A stretch of DNA of 60,293 nt from contig JAFULG010000055.1 in assembly GCA_017473435.1 (NCBI GenBank), forward strand, positions 1 to 60,293, read 5' to 3'. Below the pieces are notes generated by a model that was not told where the DNA came from, ran no database searches, and was given only the letters and a program-made list of their open reading frames with translations. Shown piece after piece: positions 8,798 to 60,157 of the stretch. Each line of letters opens with the position of its first letter. The stretch's first letter is position 1. The position numbers and the translations under genes were made by a program. This stretch comes from Clostridia bacterium. Its GTDB lineage: Bacteria > Bacillota > Clostridia > Oscillospirales > Acutalibacteraceae.

Positions 8798-8971
8798 TTA
8801 CTCATTAAAGTTGTTTGGTCTTATTTTTGTGATTTTCCCCTCGATGTATAGTGTTTCTCCATCAACAGAATGTTGTCTTCTCGTAAGAACTATATCGAAT
8901 TTTTCTGTTAGCGTTTTCCAAAAGTCAGCGGAGCATTCGTTTGGTACCTCAATATTATATTTTACTGTCAT
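8798..8971 (-). CDS. 57-residue hypothetical protein after tnpV
   Basis: Its ATG overlaps the tnpV stop (ATGA), with AAGGAG inside the end of tnpV, so it is translationally coupled. The sequence (MTVKYNIEVPNECS, then a WKTLTEKFDIVLTRR helix and a strand-rich end) has no family I can name. It is the last gene of the cassette before the terminator at 8701-8742. Confidence 0.5.
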   Translation of the reverse strand: MTVKYNIEVPNECSADFWKTLTEKFDIVLTRRQHSVDGETLYIEGKITKIRPNNFNE

Positions 8972-9333
8972 ACATATATCAACTCCTTGCATATTATTTC
9001 TCTTGTTCTTGATTCAATGTTACTCATACGGCATACCCACTCCATTTGCTTTTCCTCTTTCAGTTGCTCGGTAACACCTTCAGCCTCTTTCATCTGTTCC
9101 ACAAAAGTATCATACATTTCATTTACCTGTTTTTCTACCTCTGCGCAGTACTGATAAAGCTTACCTTGCATAAGTAGTGTATTAAAAAACACCTTCTTAT
9201 GCTTTTCAAGATAGGTCTTGTGCATCATTCCCCATTTACTGAGAGTAATCTTTGCTTCTTTGGCTGGTATTACGAGATTCGGGATGAAATAGTCGCCGAC
9301 TCTGCGGTAGGTTAGCTTTGATTTGTTTTCCAT
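8968..9333 (-). CDS. tnpV: TnpV-type transposon-associated protein
   Basis: 121 residues with the features of the TnpV family (PF14198): the opening YRRVGDYFIPNLVIP, the segment SKWGMMHKTYLEKHK, a central helix GKLYQYCAEVEKQ, and the end MEWVCRMSNIESRTREII. TnpV proteins occur in Clostridial mobile elements; no enzymatic role is known. ATG 9333 is preferred because AAAGGA lies 8 nt upstream; an ATG at 9342 overlapping the DUF6809 stop has no room for a site. A second copy lies at 53039-53425. Confidence 0.75.
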   Translation of the reverse strand: MENKSKLTYRRVGDYFIPNLVIPAKEAKITLSKWGMMHKTYLEKHKKVFFNTLLMQGKLYQYCAEVEKQVNEMYDTFVEQMKEAEGVTEQLKEEKQMEWVCRMSNIESRTREIICKELIYV

Positions 9334-9338
9334 AATTG

Positions 9339-9617
9339 TCATCCTTTCTTGTTTTCAATAAAAGTGTCGTATGTAAATCTTGCTCCGAGTCTGAACCCGA
9401 CGGTGAAGCTATCTGCATTGCAGGTGCTTGAAAATTTTATATAAGTCGCTACATAATCGGTAAAGAGCGCTTTCTCTTTGTTTGTGAGGATTGATGCCAG
9501 TTGTACCTCTTTGTCGGCAAGCTCACTCAGGTTCTTTTTAATCTTTGCGGTCAAATTTGTTGTGCACTCCTGAGGCTCAATGTTTCCGTAATAAAAATCC
9601 TCGATGAAATTTGACAT
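9339..9617 (-). CDS. DUF6809-like protein of the mobile cassette
   Basis: 92 residues, all helical. It opens MSNFIEDFYYGNIEPQE, has a charged middle (LSELADKEVQLASILTNKE) and ends with a GFRLGARFTYDTF segment. This fits the DUF6809 family, common in Clostridial integrative elements. The stop touches tnpV. A paralogue at 50944 has the same opening but a frameshifted C-terminus. No enzymatic residues are apparent. Confidence 0.65.
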   Translation of the reverse strand: MSNFIEDFYYGNIEPQECTTNLTAKIKKNLSELADKEVQLASILTNKEKALFTDYVATYIKFSSTCNADSFTVGFRLGARFTYDTFIENKKG

Positions 9618-50820: not shown

Positions 50821-50943
50821 CTGGTTTGGTGCGGGTGCTCATAAGGGATTTACTAAATACAAGTAAAAACCGGCACAGACACTATATATTCAGCAGCCAA
50901 AATCATTTGAGTTTAAAGACAGAGTAACACGGAGGAATATATA

Positions 50944-51212
50944 ATGTCAAATATAATTGAAGAATTATTCCACGGGAATCTTGAACCGCAGGAGCTTACT
51001 ACTGAAATTACACCAAAGCTAAAAAAGAAATTGAGTGAACTTGTAAAGAAAGAGGAAGAACTGTCCTCAAGGCTCACTGAAGAAGAAAAAGAGCTATTCT
51101 CAAATTATGTGAGTGCATATAATGAATTTTCTAGCATCAGCATTGCTGACGGTTTTGTTTCAGGTTCGGTGCAAAATTTACATACGATACTTTTGTGAAA
51201 AATAAGCTATAA
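50944..51212 (+). pseudogene. DUF6809-like gene with C-terminal frameshift
   Basis: From ATG 50944 (CGGAGG upstream) the frame matches the DUF6809-like protein at 9339-9617: MSNIIEELFHGNLEPQE, then LSELVKKEEELSSRLTEEEK. After IADGFVSG the frame runs into unrelated residues and stops at 51198. In the next frame the lost end appears as FGAKFTYDTFVKNKL with stop TAA 51210-51212, parallel to GARFTYDTFIENKKG of the intact copy. A small deletion near 51165 explains it. Confidence 0.7.
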
Positions 51213-51257
51213 CAATAAAACAAATGACGGTACTTATTTTATGCACCGTCGTTTGCT

Positions 51258-52811
51258 TTAAACACTAATACCCATTAATAATTTTTCAATTTTATCTAAC
51301 AAATAGTCGGAAGGTTCATTTCCTTCGATTTTAGCGTTAATCATTATTTCTAGGTCGTTATCCGTTAAATCGATAATAAGTTTACCTTGATCTTTTAATA
51401 TCCCTATAGCAGCTTTTTGAGCATTGCTGCTGAAACCGTTTCTGGATATAATGAATGCAACATTCCGCAAGGCAGGATTGAATAGATATTTTTCAGTAAT
51501 ATATATTAGGTTTTGCTTTAGTTTATCTTTATAGTTTTTACATTCGAACACTATAAACTTTGTGTTATAATATCGTATTAAAAACTCCCAAAAAGCAGTT
51601 GTTCCTTTTAATGAACATATAATATCCATCCTAAACATTTCATCATTTGTTTTATGTTGTTCAGAAAATTGTGGAAACTCGCTTTTAAATAAATACTTTA
51701 TAATTGATGAACATATTTCTTCGTATTCTTGAGCTGAACGAGTCGTTTGGCTCGTTTTGCAGTTCTTTAGTTTTGATATAAGTTCTTTTCCATAAGTAGA
51801 TTCAGTAACAAATGATGTTTTTATTTTAGTGCTATTATCTATAGATATAGGCTTTGCAGATACTATTCTGTTCAACGAATATGGAATCATATCCTGTAGT
51901 TTTTCAGACAACTCAGTTACTTCACTGCAGATATAAAGCAAATTTTTTATATCCCAAATAAAAATACCATAATTTTCAACTATTTCTTTTTTTAGCTTTT
52001 CATCAATTACACAAAGAAGAATTATACCAAATTTGTGAGCAGTGTCATTATAATTAGCAAGAGATTTATTCTTTAGTGTCTGTTCGATAGCATTCCACAC
52101 AATTTTTTTATCATTAAAAGCCCCTTTATATGCCTTTACATCTATATAGTAATTTACACCATCTTTGGTTGCTGTTAAATCGAAGTTTATTATCTTTCCT
52201 AACACATCAGTTCTGTTATTTGTTTCAAAATCTTGATAGTTTAAATGCTTTAACATGGGTACTATTAAATTTTCGAGATATTGAACTTCCCAGTCATAAA
52301 AAACTATATTTTTAGATTCATATATAAAAGATGAGTCTAAAAACAAATTTTTTTTATCATATTGTCTTAATGAAAAAACACCTAATAATAAATTGCATTC
52401 AGTAGTTAAAATCGGATTGTATTTTGCAGAATTTATTCGTTCTGCATTGAAACATATAATAACATCGAATTTGTTATTTTTTAGTTTTTCATAATTTATA
52501 AAATAGCTGTTATATGTAATAGATAGTATTGATTGATTATAATAACCGCTAACCGTATTAGAACAAATATATTTGTTACTAATGTCAGAAAAATTAGATA
52601 TAAATTGCAAGCATTCTGGTTTGGTTAAAAAAAGCACCAAGATTTTTGCAGAAGGCTTTTTATTTAATATATCAACTATTGATATAGATAAAGTGCGAGC
52701 TACTCCAGTGCCAGTAGGCATATAAAAACAGCATTTTCCAATATTGTTTTCATAAGCAGAAACTATTTTAGATAATGCTTCTTTTTGATGTGATTCTAAT
52801 TGTTTTTTCAT
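51258..52811 (-). CDS. protein with degenerate SF2 helicase lobe and two PD-(D/E)XK nuclease-like domains
   Basis: 517 residues, no signal peptide. It starts like a type III/SF2 helicase (SHQKEALSKIV, then MPTGTGVART at 31-40), but the Walker A Lys is missing and the DExH position reads FDVIICFNAERI (115-126). LLLGVFS (about 141-147) stands where motif III would be, and I see no second RecA lobe. Residues about 195-260 hold a nuclease-like core: D211 and D224-V-K226 (YYIDVKAYKG). Residues about 385-460 hold another: D396 and E423-C-K425 (FIVFECKNYKD). The gene is clearly more AT-rich than its neighbours, lies opposite to them, and splits a DUF6809/TnpV pair. I infer acquired DNA, possibly a nuclease-based defence protein. 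Confidence 0.7.
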   Translation of the reverse strand: MKKQLESHQKEALSKIVSAYENNIGKCCFYMPTGTGVARTLSISIVDILNKKPSAKILVLFLTKPECLQFISNFSDISNKYICSNTVSGYYNQSILSITYNSYFINYEKLKNNKFDVIICFNAERINSAKYNPILTTECNLLLGVFSLRQYDKKNLFLDSSFIYESKNIVFYDWEVQYLENLIVPMLKHLNYQDFETNNRTDVLGKIINFDLTATKDGVNYYIDVKAYKGAFNDKKIVWNAIEQTLKNKSLANYNDTAHKFGIILLCVIDEKLKKEIVENYGIFIWDIKNLLYICSEVTELSEKLQDMIPYSLNRIVSAKPISIDNSTKIKTSFVTESTYGKELISKLKNCKTSQTTRSAQEYEEICSSIIKYLFKSEFPQFSEQHKTNDEMFRMDIICSLKGTTAFWEFLIRYYNTKFIVFECKNYKDKLKQNLIYITEKYLFNPALRNVAFIISRNGFSSNAQKAAIGILKDQGKLIIDLTDNDLEIMINAKIEGNEPSDYLLDKIEKLLMGISV

Positions 52812-52993
52812 ATAATGTACCTATTAGTTATTTTTAGTATTATTATTTGTATTTTTAAAATCAAAGATATTATAACACAACTTAAATAAAATGTACAAGT
52901 ATGTATTGTATTTTGCTATTTTATTTGAATTTTTTAAATATTATTATACCAAACAGCAAAATAATATCTTCTATACATTCGACAAAACACACA

Positions 52994-53030
52994 CCTCCTT
53001 GTACAATGGTCTTACCAAAATACAAGGAGG
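52994..53030 (+). promoter_or_regulatory. hairpin sequestering the tnpV ribosome binding site
   Basis: CCTCCTTGTA (52994-53003) pairs perfectly with TACAAGGAGG (53021-53030) around a 17-nt loop. The right arm contains the AAGGAGG site of tnpV, 8 nt before its ATG. In a transcript covering this stretch the site would be hidden, which would lower translation from read-through transcripts. Confidence 0.75.
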
Positions 53031-53038
53031 ACTTTTAT

Positions 53039-53425
53039 ATGAACTTACCCAAACACATTACAAACGTACAAACAGTCATACAGTACACCCTTCACGGGGA
53101 CTACTACTTACCCGACCTAAAACTACCCGAACCCAAGGACAACTGCCCTATCGGCAAATGGGGACAGCTTCACCTCAACCACCTCAAAAATCACTGCCGA
53201 TCAACCTACTACACCTACCTTATGAACGGCACACTACACGATTACCTTTGCAGTATAAATGATCAGGCGGAAGAAATGTTCAACCGCATAGTGTCACATA
53301 TGGCAGAGGCAGACGGTACTGACGAAAATTTGAAAGCCACAGACCAAATGAAATGGGTAGGTCTTATGAACAACTATCGTCACTGTGCCGAGGAAGTAGT
53401 TTTTGACTCCATAATCTACATATAA
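53039..53425 (+). CDS. tnpV: TnpV-type protein, second copy
   Basis: 128 residues from ATG 53039. It follows the family pattern: YTLHGDYYLPDLKLPEPKDN, IGKWGQLHLNHLKNH, GTLHDYLCSINDQAEEMF, and MKWVGLMNNYRHCAEEVV. It is a distant relative of the copy at 8968-9333. It was probably once directly downstream of the DUF6809 gene at 50944, as at the first locus, before the 517-residue gene came between them. Strong codon bias toward C-ending codons at the start differs from its AT-rich upstream region. Confidence 0.72.
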   Translation: MNLPKHITNVQTVIQYTLHGDYYLPDLKLPEPKDNCPIGKWGQLHLNHLKNHCRSTYYTYLMNGTLHDYLCSINDQAEEMFNRIVSHMAEADGTDENLKATDQMKWVGLMNNYRHCAEEVVFDSIIYI

Positions 53426-53472: not shown

Positions 53473-54630
53473 TTATAACCTGAGGTCATCCTCTTTCCTC
53501 TGCTTCTTATCATTGATAAGCCAGGGAATGCCGAAACCTGCACCGCCGCCGACGGCAAGACCTATAAGAATGAACAGCCACCAAAGCGGATTTTTATTCT
53601 CTTTTTCGTCTTCGTTGGTAGTAGCAACCTGTTCAACTTTTTCTTCAATAACTGTACTGACATCTACGGCTTTCTTGTACTCTTTGCCGTAGTCGTCCTC
53701 GTAGGTTATGGTTATTTTACCCGTAACCTCACCGAGAGCGTCGCTGTCAACTCGCAGATTAGCCGAGCCTTGAGCGTTAGTTGCAGGCTCAATGTTACCC
53801 ACAAACACACTGCCGCCTGACTGCATGCCCTCAATGTCAAAATCAAGGGTGCAGTTGTAAATCCTGCTCTTGCCCGTGTTCATCAGCTCAAGAGTAACCG
53901 TCTGTGTGTCACCCTGAATTACCTTTTTCGGTAAGGTTGCACCGCTGTAGCTGAGCTTCACGCTCTGCTTCACATCTATTCTCACCGTATCACTTGACGA
54001 GTAGGAGCTGAAGTTTTTGTCCTCGTACTCTGCCGATACCTGAAGGTCGTGCTGGCCGATAGCAGCCGTGTTAACGGCTTTCAGCTCGATTTCCCAGGTG
54101 TAGCTGCTGCCGGCATAAATGCTTTTCACATACTTGGTGGGCATGCCAACTGTCAGAATATCACCGCTTGGATCGGAGAGGCTGAATTTGATGTTATAGA
54201 GAGCCTTGGTGGTGCTGTAATTTTTAAAGGTCACCTTCAGCACCGCCGACTTTTCGGGAGAAAGACTCTTTTCGCTGAGCTCATAACTCGTCACCATAAA
54301 CCTCGGAGTTGAGTTATCCTCGGTGGTTGGCTCTGCTGTGGTTTCTTTCGCAGGCTTTTCTTCGGGAGGTGTCAATGAGAGATATTCACTTGTGATATAC
54401 CTTTCCTCACCCTCATAGATTACCTTGCTCCAACCGTCAGCTTCACCAACACGGGTAATGCTGCTGCCCTTTTGCAGTACAGTGATGATGTCGCAGTTGG
54501 TGTTGGGCTCAGTTCTGATGTTTACATTTTCTGTGGCATAGACAGTTTCTTCCTCGTACTCTGCCGCCAAGGCGAGCACAGGTGTTAAGAGCAAGAGAAA
54601 GCAAAGGATAAACGCTGTTAATTTTTTCAT
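53473..54630 (-). CDS. SH3/CARDB-domain membrane-anchored protein of an ABC system
   Basis: 385 residues from ATG 54630, with AGAGG 8 nt upstream. A signal peptide (MKKLTAFILCFLLLLTPVLA) leads to a bacterial SH3 domain (about 28-85: VYATENVNIRTEPNTNCDII, YITSEYLSL). After a Thr/Pro/Glu linker come two CARDB-like beta domains (about 110-330). One membrane helix (WWLFILIGLAVGGGAGFGI) and a charged cytoplasmic tail end it. It lies 12 bp after the permeases in the same direction and may be the extracytoplasmic partner of the transporter. Confidence 0.8.
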   Translation of the reverse strand: MKKLTAFILCFLLLLTPVLALAAEYEEETVYATENVNIRTEPNTNCDIITVLQKGSSITRVGEADGWSKVIYEGEERYITSEYLSLTPPEEKPAKETTAEPTTEDNSTPRFMVTSYELSEKSLSPEKSAVLKVTFKNYSTTKALYNIKFSLSDPSGDILTVGMPTKYVKSIYAGSSYTWEIELKAVNTAAIGQHDLQVSAEYEDKNFSSYSSSDTVRIDVKQSVKLSYSGATLPKKVIQGDTQTVTLELMNTGKSRIYNCTLDFDIEGMQSGGSVFVGNIEPATNAQGSANLRVDSDALGEVTGKITITYEDDYGKEYKKAVDVSTVIEEKVEQVATTNEDEKENKNPLWWLFILIGLAVGGGAGFGIPWLINDKKQRKEDDLRL

Positions 54631-54642
54631 ATTCTTCACCTC

Positions 54643-57375
54643 TTACAGCTCTCTGATGTTTTCAACTATGCTGTGCTTCATTTCTTGTTTAATTTTGATA
54701 ACAAGATTTAGCGCACAAACAAGGAAAAGCACACCGCACATCAGCACGGTTTCAACAATTCTGAATTCAAACATCTGCTTATCCCATTGGAGGACTTTAT
54801 TAAGCAGATCAAAAATCCAATAGCCTGCAATGTAAACGGTAAAGCCTATACCGTATCCGTAGCCGAAAATTACAAGCAACTGTCTGATGTATGATGAGGA
54901 AAGCACCTTAAGGTCGGCACCCACTGCACGCAGAGTGCCTATCTCTCTTTTGCCCTCTCGGATACGCGCCGTCAGTGCGTTATTGACAACACTACCGCAG
55001 ATTGCAAGGAAAAGTGCTATAACGCAAATCATGCCAAAAACAAATACTCTCACCGACGTCTCGTTTTCTTTAGAGAACTCGTAATTGTTGCGGAAGACAC
55101 CGTCAGTAACGGAAAGCGAAATCTTTTCAACCAAAGGTGAGATGATTGCGTTTGTACTATCATCAAGCTCGCCCTTTGCTTTAAGGTTAAGAGCATTATA
55201 ATCAACCTCAGGAGCAAAAAGAGTGCTTGCGCTGTTGGTGGTGAGTATACCCAAGGAATCAACATAAGGTAACAAACCGCCGAATCCGTCAGGCTCACTA
55301 TTTAAAATTGCGCCGATTTTTACCTTGCGTTCGGTCTTGATAAACTGCTTTTCATCCGCCAAAGATGTGCAAATGATGCTGAGGTCAATTTCGTCACCGA
55401 CCTTATAAGTGCGCTCCTGAATTTCGATATATTCACGGTCCTTCTGCGGCGGATGGCCGTCATAAATAAAGTCTGATTCAATAAAGGTGTAACCCTCCAT
55501 ACCGAAGTCATCAATGTAAATGCCTATTTTTTCGGGTGCAATGAGAACAATCTCCTCACCGCTGTTGATTTTATCAAGATTGATTTCACCCTCAACAACA
55601 GATTCCTTAATTTTTTCAAAATATTCCCCGTTAATGCTTACAAAGGAAGCAGGTAAAACATTTGAACTGATATTATATTTTTCTCTTAATTCATAATAGC
55701 TTTCAGAGAATTTGCCCGCTACCTTTTCCTTGTAATTCTCTGCCGTAACACCCTTGTCTACATAGTCATAAATACCGTAAAAGTTATCGCTTATTGTTAC
55801 CAGAGTCTGATAAGCGTCAAAATCCTCGGTAAGTATGTTTGCCATACATTCTTTTGATGCAAAGATGCTTTCAAAATATCCCGTTGACATAAGCTCGGCA
55901 ATGTCATTGTCGGAGTAGCCTCTGTAATCAAGGATTTCGTTACGAATAAAGCCTACACTTCTATCACACCCGAGCTCATATTCAGGACCCGAGTAGCCGA
56001 TTTCGTCAAGCTCATGACCGAGGGCGGAAAAGCCATAGCAGGAGAAAAATATTGTAAAAGCAAGAATAACGCTGACAATAACCTGCCTTGAACGGGCAAG
56101 GGTGATGTTTCTTTTTGCAAGCAGCGCCGACACATTAAAGCTCTTTTGTGAGCGTATTTTCTTTCTTCTCAACTTTCTTGCGTAATCTACATTGCGGATT
56201 GCCTGCATAGGTGAGTTTTTCGAAATAGGAATAAGCGGTATAAGCGCCGCACACATTACGCAGATAACACCTACATCCGCACCGACTACGAGAACCCATA
56301 GCTTCGGCATAAAAATGAAGTCCTCACCCATCAGCTTTGCAATAAGCTTAACGCCGAAATAAGATATTAAAACGCTCAGCGGAGCCGCTATGAGGCTTAT
56401 TATAAAAGCCTCACGGGCATAAATTGTTATAATCTGCCTTTTTGTTGCGCCCACGGCACGAAGCATACCTATCTGTCTTTTCCTTTCACGAAGATTATTT
56501 GCAAAGGAGTTGACTATTGCAAGACAGGAAACAAGGGTAAGTATAACCGCAAAGCTTATAGTATAAAGCATTGTACCCGTAATATCCGCACCGTTTGCAC
56601 CGTCGTTGTTTTCGCGGTAGTTTGTGGGTACTCTTTCACAGTTTGCCGTAAGCTCATAATATTCTTGTTTATCTCTGGCTTCATAGCTATGCCAATTAAC
56701 AAAGCCGACAAGCAATTCCTTACCGCCGACGGCTGTTTGCTCGCCTTTATAAACATAGGCAGAGGGCATCAAAGCCGTAGTCTCGGGACTCGTACTGTCG
56801 CAAATAAAGGGCTTTTTGTTAACTACAATACCTACAAGGGTATAGGTTCTTTTTTCGGCTTTATCGGTAAAACCTTCACCGTCAGGGATTTTCATATTGA
56901 GCGTAAGCTGTTCACCAACCTTGACATTCTCTAAGCCGAGCTGAGTAAGCGCCTGCTTTTCAACAGCAAATTCCCCCTCTTTTTCAGGCAATCTGCCTTC
57001 AGACAGATAAGGATAATACATCTCGGTCGCCTTATCCTCAAGCCAGGCAACAGCAGTACCGATGTCGCTTTTTTCCTCATCCTTAAAGGCAAAGCCTATT
57101 GTATGAGCAAAGGAATATTCTGAAATATAGCCCTTATCTGCGATGTTTTCAAAATCAAAGTCCGTTGCCTTGATATAAATCTCATCCTGCCTGCCGTATA
57201 TTCTGTCTTTGCTTTCATTGGTAGAGGTTTGCAAGCAGGAAACGAAAAATGTAATCCCCGATGAAAACACCATAGCAAGCACGATGCCGATAATGAGAAT
57301 TGTGTATTGCTTTTTACGCTGCTTCAGGTTACCCATAGCAAGGGTGTTTATTGTAAGCTTGTTTTTCTTTTTCAT
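54643..57375 (-). CDS. FtsX/MacB-type ABC transporter permease, copy 1
   Basis: 910 residues from ATG 57375 (GGGGTG upstream). One N-terminal membrane helix, a long outer domain of MacB-core type, three helices with the FtsX segment (RERKRQIGMLRAVGATKRQI), a second outer domain, and three C-terminal helices with REGKREIGTLRAVGA. It ends SIVENIREL, as does the next permease. Such permeases act with an ATPase in mechanotransmission or export of lipids, peptides or drugs. It lies 4 bp after the second permease and is clearly its paralogue. Confidence 0.88.
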   Translation of the reverse strand: MKKKNKLTINTLAMGNLKQRKKQYTILIIGIVLAMVFSSGITFFVSCLQTSTNESKDRIYGRQDEIYIKATDFDFENIADKGYISEYSFAHTIGFAFKDEEKSDIGTAVAWLEDKATEMYYPYLSEGRLPEKEGEFAVEKQALTQLGLENVKVGEQLTLNMKIPDGEGFTDKAEKRTYTLVGIVVNKKPFICDSTSPETTALMPSAYVYKGEQTAVGGKELLVGFVNWHSYEARDKQEYYELTANCERVPTNYRENNDGANGADITGTMLYTISFAVILTLVSCLAIVNSFANNLRERKRQIGMLRAVGATKRQIITIYAREAFIISLIAAPLSVLISYFGVKLIAKLMGEDFIFMPKLWVLVVGADVGVICVMCAALIPLIPISKNSPMQAIRNVDYARKLRRKKIRSQKSFNVSALLAKRNITLARSRQVIVSVILAFTIFFSCYGFSALGHELDEIGYSGPEYELGCDRSVGFIRNEILDYRGYSDNDIAELMSTGYFESIFASKECMANILTEDFDAYQTLVTISDNFYGIYDYVDKGVTAENYKEKVAGKFSESYYELREKYNISSNVLPASFVSINGEYFEKIKESVVEGEINLDKINSGEEIVLIAPEKIGIYIDDFGMEGYTFIESDFIYDGHPPQKDREYIEIQERTYKVGDEIDLSIICTSLADEKQFIKTERKVKIGAILNSEPDGFGGLLPYVDSLGILTTNSASTLFAPEVDYNALNLKAKGELDDSTNAIISPLVEKISLSVTDGVFRNNYEFSKENETSVRVFVFGMICVIALFLAICGSVVNNALTARIREGKREIGTLRAVGADLKVLSSSYIRQLLVIFGYGYGIGFTVYIAGYWIFDLLNKVLQWDKQMFEFRIVETVLMCGVLFLVCALNLVIKIKQEMKHSIVENIREL

Positions 57376-57379
57376 TTCG

Positions 57380-60157
57380 TCACCCCAATTCTCTGATGTT
57401 TTCAACTATGCTGTGCTTTGTGACGGTTTTGATTTTTGCTTTTAAGTTGATATAACACGAAAGGGCTATTATACCACAGACTAAAAATGCCGGCCAGATA
57501 ACAATAGGCCAATATTCAGCGGTTACTATTTTTCCTATCATCCTATAGGAAGCAATATAAGTTATTGTTCCAACACCGAATCCCCAAAGCAACATATCTG
57601 CTATCTGCATTATATAAGACATAACAAGGTCTTTTTCGGATGCTCCCACTGCTCTGAGTGTTCCTATGGAACGCTTACCTTCACGAATTTGGGCACTTAT
57701 CGAGTTGTTTATAAGAGAAATGCTTATGCAAAGAAAAACAAGAATAAGCGAAACAATAGAAAGTGTTAAGGTTCTGAACTCATGTTTTTCGGCTTCATTC
57801 ATCGCAAAAGCTGAACCTATATATTTGCCGGGAAACATAGCGGCAAGCTCGGATTGCATTTGCTCGTCAATTTCAGCGGTACACTCTTCTTTTAATTCAA
57901 CATCAAGACTGCGGTAGTTGAATTTTTCTTTAAATGTATCAAGGCCTTCTAAGGTTGTATATATCGAAAAACTTCCGTGAGAGCTCTTTTTACCTAAAAT
58001 TACACCGATTTTAACTTCTTTATCTTCTCTTGTGATATTTCCGTTTACACCGGAACAAATGAGGCTTAATTTTAATTTGTCGCCGACCTTAAAGGGACTT
58101 TCCGCTTCCGCTTTTAAATTCTTTAACAGCTCCTTATCTCCCACAGTAAGCCCAACTGCTTCATCAGAAAGATTCATCAGTCCGTATGTGGTGGATCCGT
58201 TGGTTACCTCATAAGAAAAGCCTATTTTTTCAGGAGCATATATTATAATTTCTTCACCCGCATTAAGCTTTTCTATATTTATTTCACCGTCAATTATATC
58301 ATCTTCATCTATATCTAAAATTGAACCGCTTTTTGCTGTTATTGTTGTGTTAAAAAGCTCTTCTGTTGTAAAACCTGCAGCTTGCTTTGTGTAAGTATAA
58401 TCAGGATTAGTAGCGGCTTGCATATATTCCTTTATATTTTCTTTTGTCGGCACGGGAACATTGGGCGGAACAAAACGCTCACCGCTTACTTGCACAGCAT
58501 GAGCTTGATTATATGCAACATCACGTGCATCTGTAAAACGGGAACTTGTATCTATAGAAGATACATATTCATTAACTTGAAGATATTCCGGAACTTCTCC
58601 GTCAATAACAATATTCACATTCAGATATTTTGTTCCGTATACATTTTTAACCTGATGAAGCTCAAGGATTTCATACCGTGAATTTTCATTAAGATCGGTG
58701 TCATAGCTTTTGAAATTTATGAATGAATTACTCGAACCGGCTTGACCGTGATTAATAATCTCATAATCTGAGTTATAAAAACTGCTTGTATCAGAAATTG
58801 TAGTATAAAGAAAAGACATGGAAATACAACTGATAACAATAGAGCAGATAATTATAATACATACACTCGCTTGTCTGCCTTGTGAAAAAACAAGTTTTCT
58901 TTTTGCGAGAAGCCTTGACACATTGAAATGAGTTTGACTTTTTATTTTCCTGTTCTTCATCTTTCGCATCAACTCAATGTCTCTTATTGCCTGCATAGGC
59001 GGTAATTTTGAAATGCTCCAGAGAGGAATAAGAGCCGACAGCATAACACATATAACACCGAACAAAGCACCGAGTAAAAGTATAGTTATATCGGGCTTGA
59101 AGATAAATCCGTCACCCATAAGCTTTGCAAAGAGTTTAACTGCACTGTAAGAAATTGCAACGCTTAAAGGTGCGGTAATAACACAGATGATAAAAGCCTC
59201 TCTGCCGAAAATATTTATTATCTGTCTTCTTGTTGCACCAACGGCTTTGAGCATGCCTATCTGATTTTTTCTCTCTTTAAGGTTTGAGCTGAAAGTATTT
59301 ACTATACCAAAGCAAGTCATAAAAGCAAGAAGAATTGAAAGAAAAGCAGAGGTTGTAGTGTTATTGGCTATATTAGAATAAGTGTCACCGATACTGACAG
59401 CATAAAGGGTTGATGTGTCAATCCTGTCATCTGTAGATACATTCTGCCAAAGCCAGTGAGCGGAATCCCAATTTTCATTTAAAAATGCAACTAAAGCTTC
59501 TTTTCCGCCGAGCTCTGTAGGTGTATTCTGCTTTACAAAAGCAGCAGGAATAAAAGAGGCTTTTCGCACTGCTTCATCGTAAAAATGTTCAATATATGAC
59601 TTTTTATCATGCATAATACCGACAAGAGTATATGTCTTATCTGTTTCATCATTAAGGAAATTTGAACCGTTACAGGCAAGTGACTTTAATGAGATTTCAT
59701 CACCTACCTCTGCTTCGATTTTCATTCTTTGAAGTGCATTTTTTTCAAACGCAATTTCACCCTCATTTTTGGGCATTCTTCCTTCAATGATATTGGGATA
59801 GTAAAGCTCTGTAACTCTGTCATCAAGCCAACCTATCATAGTTCCGTCAGACATATCCTCTTTTTCATTCCAGACGTAGGATAGAACATGAGCATATCCG
59901 ATTTCTCCGTTAACTGCACCCTGATTTATTGCAGATGTTAAATCATAATTCTGTGCATTTACTATAACTATTTCCTGTTTACCTTGGCGTCTGAATTTTG
60001 CTTCTTCCTGTGAAGATTTCATACAGGAAATAAAAAAAGGTACGCCCGATGAAAACACCATAGCAAGAATGATGCCGATAATGAGAATAGTATACTGCTT
60101 TTTGCGTTGTTTCAGGTTACCCATAGCAAGGGTGTTAACCGTCAGTTTCTTCTTCAT
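57380..60157 (-). CDS. FtsX/MacB-type ABC transporter permease, copy 2
   Basis: 925 residues, same domain order as copy 1: N-terminal helix after LAMGNLKQRKKQYTILIIG, outer domain, FtsX block (KERKNQIGMLKAVGATRRQI), second outer domain, and the last FtsX block (REGKRSIGTLRAVGASEKDL), ending SIVENIRELG. The outer domains differ greatly from copy 1, while the first 40 and last 10 residues are almost the same, also at DNA level. GGGAGG precedes the ATG. The ATPase gene ends 19 bp upstream. Confidence 0.88.
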   Translation of the reverse strand: MKKKLTVNTLAMGNLKQRKKQYTILIIGIILAMVFSSGVPFFISCMKSSQEEAKFRRQGKQEIVIVNAQNYDLTSAINQGAVNGEIGYAHVLSYVWNEKEDMSDGTMIGWLDDRVTELYYPNIIEGRMPKNEGEIAFEKNALQRMKIEAEVGDEISLKSLACNGSNFLNDETDKTYTLVGIMHDKKSYIEHFYDEAVRKASFIPAAFVKQNTPTELGGKEALVAFLNENWDSAHWLWQNVSTDDRIDTSTLYAVSIGDTYSNIANNTTTSAFLSILLAFMTCFGIVNTFSSNLKERKNQIGMLKAVGATRRQIINIFGREAFIICVITAPLSVAISYSAVKLFAKLMGDGFIFKPDITILLLGALFGVICVMLSALIPLWSISKLPPMQAIRDIELMRKMKNRKIKSQTHFNVSRLLAKRKLVFSQGRQASVCIIIICSIVISCISMSFLYTTISDTSSFYNSDYEIINHGQAGSSNSFINFKSYDTDLNENSRYEILELHQVKNVYGTKYLNVNIVIDGEVPEYLQVNEYVSSIDTSSRFTDARDVAYNQAHAVQVSGERFVPPNVPVPTKENIKEYMQAATNPDYTYTKQAAGFTTEELFNTTITAKSGSILDIDEDDIIDGEINIEKLNAGEEIIIYAPEKIGFSYEVTNGSTTYGLMNLSDEAVGLTVGDKELLKNLKAEAESPFKVGDKLKLSLICSGVNGNITREDKEVKIGVILGKKSSHGSFSIYTTLEGLDTFKEKFNYRSLDVELKEECTAEIDEQMQSELAAMFPGKYIGSAFAMNEAEKHEFRTLTLSIVSLILVFLCISISLINNSISAQIREGKRSIGTLRAVGASEKDLVMSYIMQIADMLLWGFGVGTITYIASYRMIGKIVTAEYWPIVIWPAFLVCGIIALSCYINLKAKIKTVTKHSIVENIRELG

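Follow-up and report, generated by a model that had tools for sequence, protein, structure and literature searches.

The window, the whole stretch of 60,293 nucleotides that was analysed (contig JAFULG010000055.1 of the Clostridia bacterium assembly GCA_017473435.1), carries on its minus strand, at 51258-52811, a frame of 517 open codons from ATG through stop. The gene is intact, mobile and gut-bacterial, and its reading frame is real. Its parts and surroundings are as follows (residue numbers are those of the protein).

51258..52811, minus strand: coding sequence of 517 aa, a RecA1-type lobe, an Mrr-like PD-(D/E)XK core and a second nuclease-like core (ORF, domain searches, alignment)
52287..52811, minus strand: single SF2 RecA1-type lobe, residues 1-175 (Pfam ResIII and matches of lobe profile A7)
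52692..52721, minus strand: degenerate Walker A MPTGTGVART, residues 31-40, a P-loop without Lys
52440..52451, minus strand: F121-N-A-E124 in place of Walker B D-E-A-H/Q (aligned with DEAH of relatives)
51837..52286, minus strand: first nuclease domain, Mrr-like PD-(D/E)XK, residues 176-325 (PDB matches of profile A6; Mrr_cat in lobe-less relatives)
52179..52181, minus strand: D211 of the first core (19/20 alignment rows)
52134..52142, minus strand: D224-V-K226 of the first core (D/E in 19/20 rows, K in 20/20)
51261..51794, minus strand: second nuclease-like domain, the most conserved, residues 340-517 (PADLOC PDC-M36A; alignments A5 and A8)
51720..51722, minus strand: E364, first-helix Glu of the second core (20/20 rows; 15/15 in a wider set)
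51624..51626, minus strand: D396 of the second core (20/20 rows; 15/15 in the wider set)
51537..51545, minus strand: E423-C-K425 of the second core (20/20 rows; in the wider set K 15/15, E 14/15)
52869..52897, minus strand: promoter-like TGTACA-17-TATAAT with TG, ahead of the coding sequence (weak evidence)
50825..51208, plus strand: left flank, repeated DUF6809 unit with an ORF at 50944-51198 (Pfam DUF6809 E 1.3e-17; further copies in genome and genus)
52958..53425, plus strand: right flank, TnpV unit with an ORF from 53039 (Pfam TnpV E 7.1e-39)
8971..9617, minus strand: second DUF6809-TnpV pair of the window, without the gene (55% and 33% amino acid identity, respectively; same order and strand)

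Promoter-like sites are no more frequent in this region of the window than in shuffled sequence.

The gene and its cassette

An earlier note on this DNA had described the gene as AT-rich, reversed against its neighbours and inserted in a mobile cassette, and all of this holds. The GC content of the ORF is 0.27 against 0.37-0.48 in the other seven ORFs between 47.5 and 60.2 kb that reach 100 aa, with the DUF6809 stretch intermediate at 0.34, and the gene lies on the minus strand while both small flanking genes lie on the plus strand. Two other DUF6809-TnpV pairs of the same genome adjoin without the gene, namely the one listed above and one on contig C74, where a spacing of about 260 bases separates DUF6809 from TnpV, with order and strand unchanged. 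The DNA of C74 matches window positions 50825-51208 and 52958-53030, so that 51209-52957 is absent from it. A second TnpV copy, in contig C16, has ends corresponding to window positions 52959-53420, and further copies of the ABC-transporter side, from the same genome and from relatives, match from 53422-53425 onwards (from 53463 in L073); no clear repeats were seen at the insert ends examined.

The DUF6809 unit, of about 380 bases, is repeated in the genome and the genus; its copies are numerous and diverged, and a TnpV gene often comes after them. The ABC-transporter region at 53473-57405 has near copies on contigs C84 (97.9% over 4.1 kb) and C40. The 44 of 45 window ORFs that were scanned include no other clear defence system; their remaining matches are mainly to HTH regulators and a LolE-type membrane protein. 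Neither HsdM nor HsdS was found among them beside the gene, which does not qualify as a type I R subunit.

At the front of the protein, Pfam ResIII covers residues 3-137 with E 3.1e-10, exceeding its curated cut-off, which bears out the SF2-like start proposed in the earlier note, as well as its Walker A without Lys at residues 31-40. Walker B is degenerate, as had also been said, but the NAER named as its replacement was one residue out of register, the aligned counterpart being FNAE at 121-124. No RecA2 was found in the gap that separates the lobe, ending near residue 150, from the first core, starting near 178, in the query or its aligned relatives, again as claimed, and with one RecA lobe, GTGVAR and FNAE the window protein lacks the hallmarks of an active SF2 enzyme. 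Pfam Mrr_cat on residues 175-237 scored 15.2 of the 21 bits of its cut-off, and an NCBIfam search of the protein gave no match. A search of the PDB with the single protein also returned RAD53 FHA matches (E 0.013), which we reject as chance because an FHA domain would be out of place here and helicases are what the profile search names.

Distribution and neighbourhoods of the relatives

The family is rare and patchy in distribution. A search of the taxonomic order matched 7 of 394 genomes, only four of them fully or nearly so, the genome of the window included; a relative is carried by two of the 34 genomes of the genus, and the C-terminal core by five of the 398 of the phylum. A scan of 84,980 species genomes yielded full-length relatives at 19 loci and a viral-contig search one at a single locus, and the phylum search later added L092 (GLGKS, DEAH), which stands outside the alignment table used below. 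A count of 170 of 391 genomes was rejected as a measure of family size because nearly all of the matches listed cover only the lobe within long ORFs, that is, HsdR-like and other helicases.

The table has 20 rows, of which 17, query included, have the lobe. Left out were L018 (identical to L017), L028 and L023, whose frames are broken, the truncated L029, the duplicates L003, L004 and L099 (of L019, L026 and L025, respectively), and L096, L118 and L119, which share the contigs of L059, L097 and L098. The open frame of L017 lacks the first 25 or so residues. Partial relatives without the lobe, covering at most 66% of the query, occur in 28 plasmid records, mostly of Rhizobium and Agrobacterium; two lobe-less plasmid relatives measure 340 and 372 aa, and such relatives sit on conjugative rhizobial plasmids. 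L030 is a lobe-less Firmicute copy, and the lobe-less L097 and L098, on two viral contigs, adjoin terminase genes. Phage carriage is rare, given that a collection of 50,697 phage records held no match and the viral-contig searches returned 0, 1, 3 and 2 relatives (the three contigs include those of the searches that gave one and two). In a protein of 652 aa (L095:73-2031), this C-terminal core follows a front that was not recognised, and a rhizobial lobe-less copy (L009:2511-6861) follows genes annotated as TIR, HhH-GPD glycosylase, 7-cyano-7-deazaguanine synthase and TIR.

PADLOC and Pfam were run on the 139 ORFs that neighbour the gene at 18 loci, with the 25 most frequent of 273 families listed, and L102 was scanned in part. 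This neighbourhood analysis, which the earlier note had proposed, revealed a defence-type setting for several relatives. In L102, HsdM-HsdS-HsdR lies 46 bases upstream of the gene, with a separate HsdR at E 9e-164; SIR2-HerA adjoins the gene in L017, and GajA-GajB follows directly downstream in L021. An established defence system thus stands beside the gene in at least three of 19 partly scanned loci, a raw count from which no enrichment is claimed. The candidate PDC-S01 is found nearby in L026. GajB matches in L012 and L014 are by eye the housekeeping PcrA/UvrD and were not counted as defence.

A serine recombinase gene lies 72 bases upstream in L011. An rlmCD/RumA-type 23S rRNA methyltransferase gene lies upstream in L012, L013, L014 and L029; for this link no mechanism was found and no element was seen in the four loci, and the neighbour looks like a preferred insertion place.

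Nuclease cores and the RecA1-type lobe

Across the 20 rows, K226, E364, D396, E423 and K425 are present in every one, D211 in 19 (L011 has N) and D or E at 224 in 19 (L021 has Q). The positions of the two motif sets given in the earlier note (D211, D224-V-K226, D396, E423-C-K425) are right, and the motif residues of both cores are not there by chance. The first core combines the D...(D/E)xK motifs of an Mrr-like PD-(D/E)XK nuclease with a family profile match via relatives, Mrr_cat exceeding its cut-off in five lobe-less ones (L094, L097, L098, P0002 and P0003). Its profile A6 matched nine PDB sequences at E <=1, none below 0.001, led by AF1548 (0.003), XisH (0.011), ST1444 and three Hjc entries (0.02-0.1). 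A sensor protein among the nine is out of keeping; the others share the PD-(D/E)XK fold. The second core has the motif series E, D, (D/E)xK, and among 15 wide relatives E364, D396 and K425 are kept in all and E423 in 14, with D in an F-plasmid protein. Searches of the PDB with second-core profiles gave no match of note. Hence, of the two PD-(D/E)XK domains that had been claimed, the first stands by its motifs and by Mrr_cat in relatives, while the second, predicted to be PD-(D/E)XK-like by its motifs, was not confirmed by PDB profiles or profile-profile comparison. G-alpha and cellulase matches of the second core were rejected as chance. Internal duplication as the origin of the two cores is not supported, with probabilities of 5% and 8.7% over 18-23 columns around ExK only.

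Conservation rises towards the C terminus. Over four pairs, dN/dS was 0.15-0.59 in the lobe and 0.04-0.23 in the C-terminal core: for lobe, first core and second core it was 0.59, 0.18 and 0.15 in L012-L014, 0.32, 0.24 and 0.08 in L019-L016, 0.15, 0.16 and 0.04 in L026-L022, and 0.24, 0.95 and 0.23 in L014-L059, a pair with very few changes; the window-L011 pair is saturated, with 74% identity in the second core. Identities in the same order are 49, 63 and 86% between L022 and L026 and 34, 37 and 64% between L022 and L021. L021, L022 and L026 each have a Fic gene (SoFic E 1.1e-34 in L022) at a distance of 14-16 bases upstream, of which L025 retains a remnant; the three Fic genes are 90-93% identical while the adjoining nuclease gene has strongly diverged. 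The lobe of L025 is nearer to L026 (72 versus 44%) and its first core nearer to L022 (61 versus 56%), mixed affinities that hint at an exchange of parts.

The lobe profile A7 matched XPB/RAD25 (E 1.1e-11), RadD (2.2e-11), LlaGI (5e-7) and a type I R subunit (7.1e-7) in the PDB, and the type I R model of PADLOC recognises L092 and L002. In all 17 lobed rows the lobe runs straight into the Mrr-like core, followed by the second core. Eleven of them (L002, L012, L013, L014, L015, L016, L019, L022, L025, L026 and L059) keep the Walker A Lys, which is absent from the query, L011, L017 (which has Arg), L021, L024 and L027, and Walker B DE is present in six (L012, L013, L014, L025, L026 and L059). These are counts of rows and not of independent events, given the close relationship of L012, L014 and L059. 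A tree of the nuclease part, in which five of 17 inner branches are open, calls for at least four changes each for Lys and DE, gains and losses counted alike.

The inactive lobe of the earlier note does not hold as a trait of the family, given that GKT or GKS occurs together with DEAQ or DEAH in L012, L013, L014, L059 and L092. That note had reckoned with homologues combining intact motifs and a complete helicase; the intact motifs exist, a complete helicase was found in none. Because relatives keep the intact motifs, inactivity would be a derived and repeated state, and the alignment indicates that the lobe motifs have decayed repeatedly within the family.

Known systems and the function of the protein

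Parts of the architecture recur in known families. The PADLOC candidate PDC-M36A (PDLC04597/04598), whose M we take to denote a multi-gene candidate, matches the C-terminal core (query 341-492, E 4.5e-14) and also lobe-less and transposon relatives, but only 282-431 of its 457 model positions are matched, by the C-terminal third of the query, which falls short of a full-length match. No other M36 component was found among the 25 most frequent neighbour families listed. PMC12988326 describes PDCs as unvalidated. The phage/prophage family phrog_31260 (365 aa; 'unknown function' in PHROGs) resembles both nuclease cores (query 207-514, E 1.1e-59, spanning 43-362 of 365 positions) but has no lobe. 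The F-plasmid Tn3-family transposon carries as its third gene a passenger, WP_000422420.1, which we take to be tnpX of Tn1000 and which has a homologous C-terminal core with E, D and D-x-K (A5 profile E 4.3e-13, with Z set to 177,635 for five targets); its front, however, is a Sll1717-family P-loop ATPase (NF047389 E 1e-86), with neither the lobe nor the Mrr core. PMC6340991 also backs the tnpX identity. The gene is present in plasmid F and in DH5alpha and XL1-Blue records, strain chromosomes included (L116:4303-6399 in NC_002483.1; L115:4501-6597 in DH5alpha).

Other systems are likened to it in part. XPF/Hef, AddB and RecC retain dead helicase parts as a scaffold beside a nuclease but keep both RecA lobes and are not known to be homologous to the query as whole proteins. 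Zorya ZorD, an SNF2 helicase with an Mrr-like nuclease, gives a weak match to the Mrr core in L094 and L098, but is a complete helicase within a four-gene system. Type I HsdR and type ISP enzymes (LlaGI) likewise join a related RecA1 lobe to a PD-(D/E)XK nuclease, but they are complete helicases with the nuclease ahead and methylase or specificity parts, whereas the query has one lobe with two cores behind (type ISP make-up from PMC4666363). The DefensePredictor paper (PMC13092281) reports that 13 of its validated systems contain PD-(D/E)XK domains. A literature search named no system with the order lobe, Mrr-like core and second core, in line with the earlier note, and described no activity for any family member.

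With moderate confidence we favour a single-polypeptide, horizontally moving nuclease that would attack invader DNA, be it of a phage, a plasmid or a rival element, and the window protein is probably such a weapon. Several lines of evidence argue for this reading: nuclease-motif residues are kept over 20 rows while the lobe motifs decay; the conservation gradient and the diverged front beside near-identical Fic genes mark a fast-changing front; a type I set, SIR2-HerA, GajA-GajB and phage genes adjoin relatives, and conjugative rhizobial plasmids carry lobe-less ones; the same C-terminal core stands behind a P-loop ATPase in a Tn3-family transposon; and PADLOC lists that core as a candidate. 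Counted against it are the loss of the first-core D in the nearest relative, L011, and of the D/E in L021, the window's lack of another clear defence system among the 44 of 45 ORFs scanned, and a second core for which PDB profile searches gave nothing of note and whose alignment with the first is very poor (probabilities of 5% and 8.7%).

Modification-dependent, type IV-like restriction, in which the front would read modified bases as in Mrr- or McrBC-type systems and the cores would cut with no abortive step, would suit the Mrr_cat-like first core of lobe-less relatives, the fast-changing front and the type I system adjoining L102, but is unlikely, as Pfam, searched to E <=1, showed no SRA, EVE or similar reader domain and Mrr_cat stays below its cut-off in the window protein. 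Somewhat less probable again is a service gene of mobile elements that aids the spread of its carrier or excludes rival copies, as a passenger rather than for cell defence. The cassette position, the recombinase upstream in L011, the passenger place in a Tn3-family transposon and the occurrence on plasmids and phages agree with such a role; yet it is compatible with defence, the chromosomal partners are type I R-M, SIR2-HerA and Gabija, and no element was seen in the four loci where the gene lies downstream of an rlmCD-type gene.

We regard as very improbable a nuclease for DNA repair or recombination, akin to XPB-Bax1 or XPF and dispersed by chance: XPB/RAD25 and RadD are the best matches of the lobe profile, but the distribution is patchy (2/34 genus genomes; C-terminal core in 5/398 phylum genomes), the places variable and the GC content low. 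Least credible is a decaying gene being lost, for although the lobe motifs are gone in the window protein and L023 and L028 are broken copies, 517 codons stay open at 27% GC, every second-core residue is kept and that core remains 74% identical to L011.

What the data show are the domain layout, the pattern of conservation, the recurrent decay of the lobe, the mobility of the gene and the exchange of its fronts. For the favoured nuclease against invading DNA, we infer the DNA cutting, the gating and the defence role as follows. The conserved C-terminal core would be the main effector and the Mrr-like core a further module that cuts or grips DNA. The RecA1-type lobe may derive, without its partner lobe, from an HsdR/XPB-type helicase; it would not translocate but would engage DNA and gate the nuclease. 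ATP binding may still be a switch in some lineages, while in the query lineage the lobe may have become an ATP-independent scaffold, which we liken to XPF or AddB.

More tentatively, and as a possibility we put somewhat below an even chance, the C-terminal core may be a mobile nuclease effector domain plugged behind interchangeable sensing fronts, which would be a lone RecA1 lobe with an Mrr core, an Mrr core alone or a Sll1717 P-loop ATPase; the F-plasmid passenger would then guard its carrier against other DNA, and the lobe would have lost ATP use more than once here with the effector intact. If this is true, a gut-bacterial cassette gene, phrog_31260 and the passenger of the F plasmid have a single effector domain in common, and ATP motifs lost repeatedly from one scaffold would show a helicase lobe turning into a DNA-sensing part.
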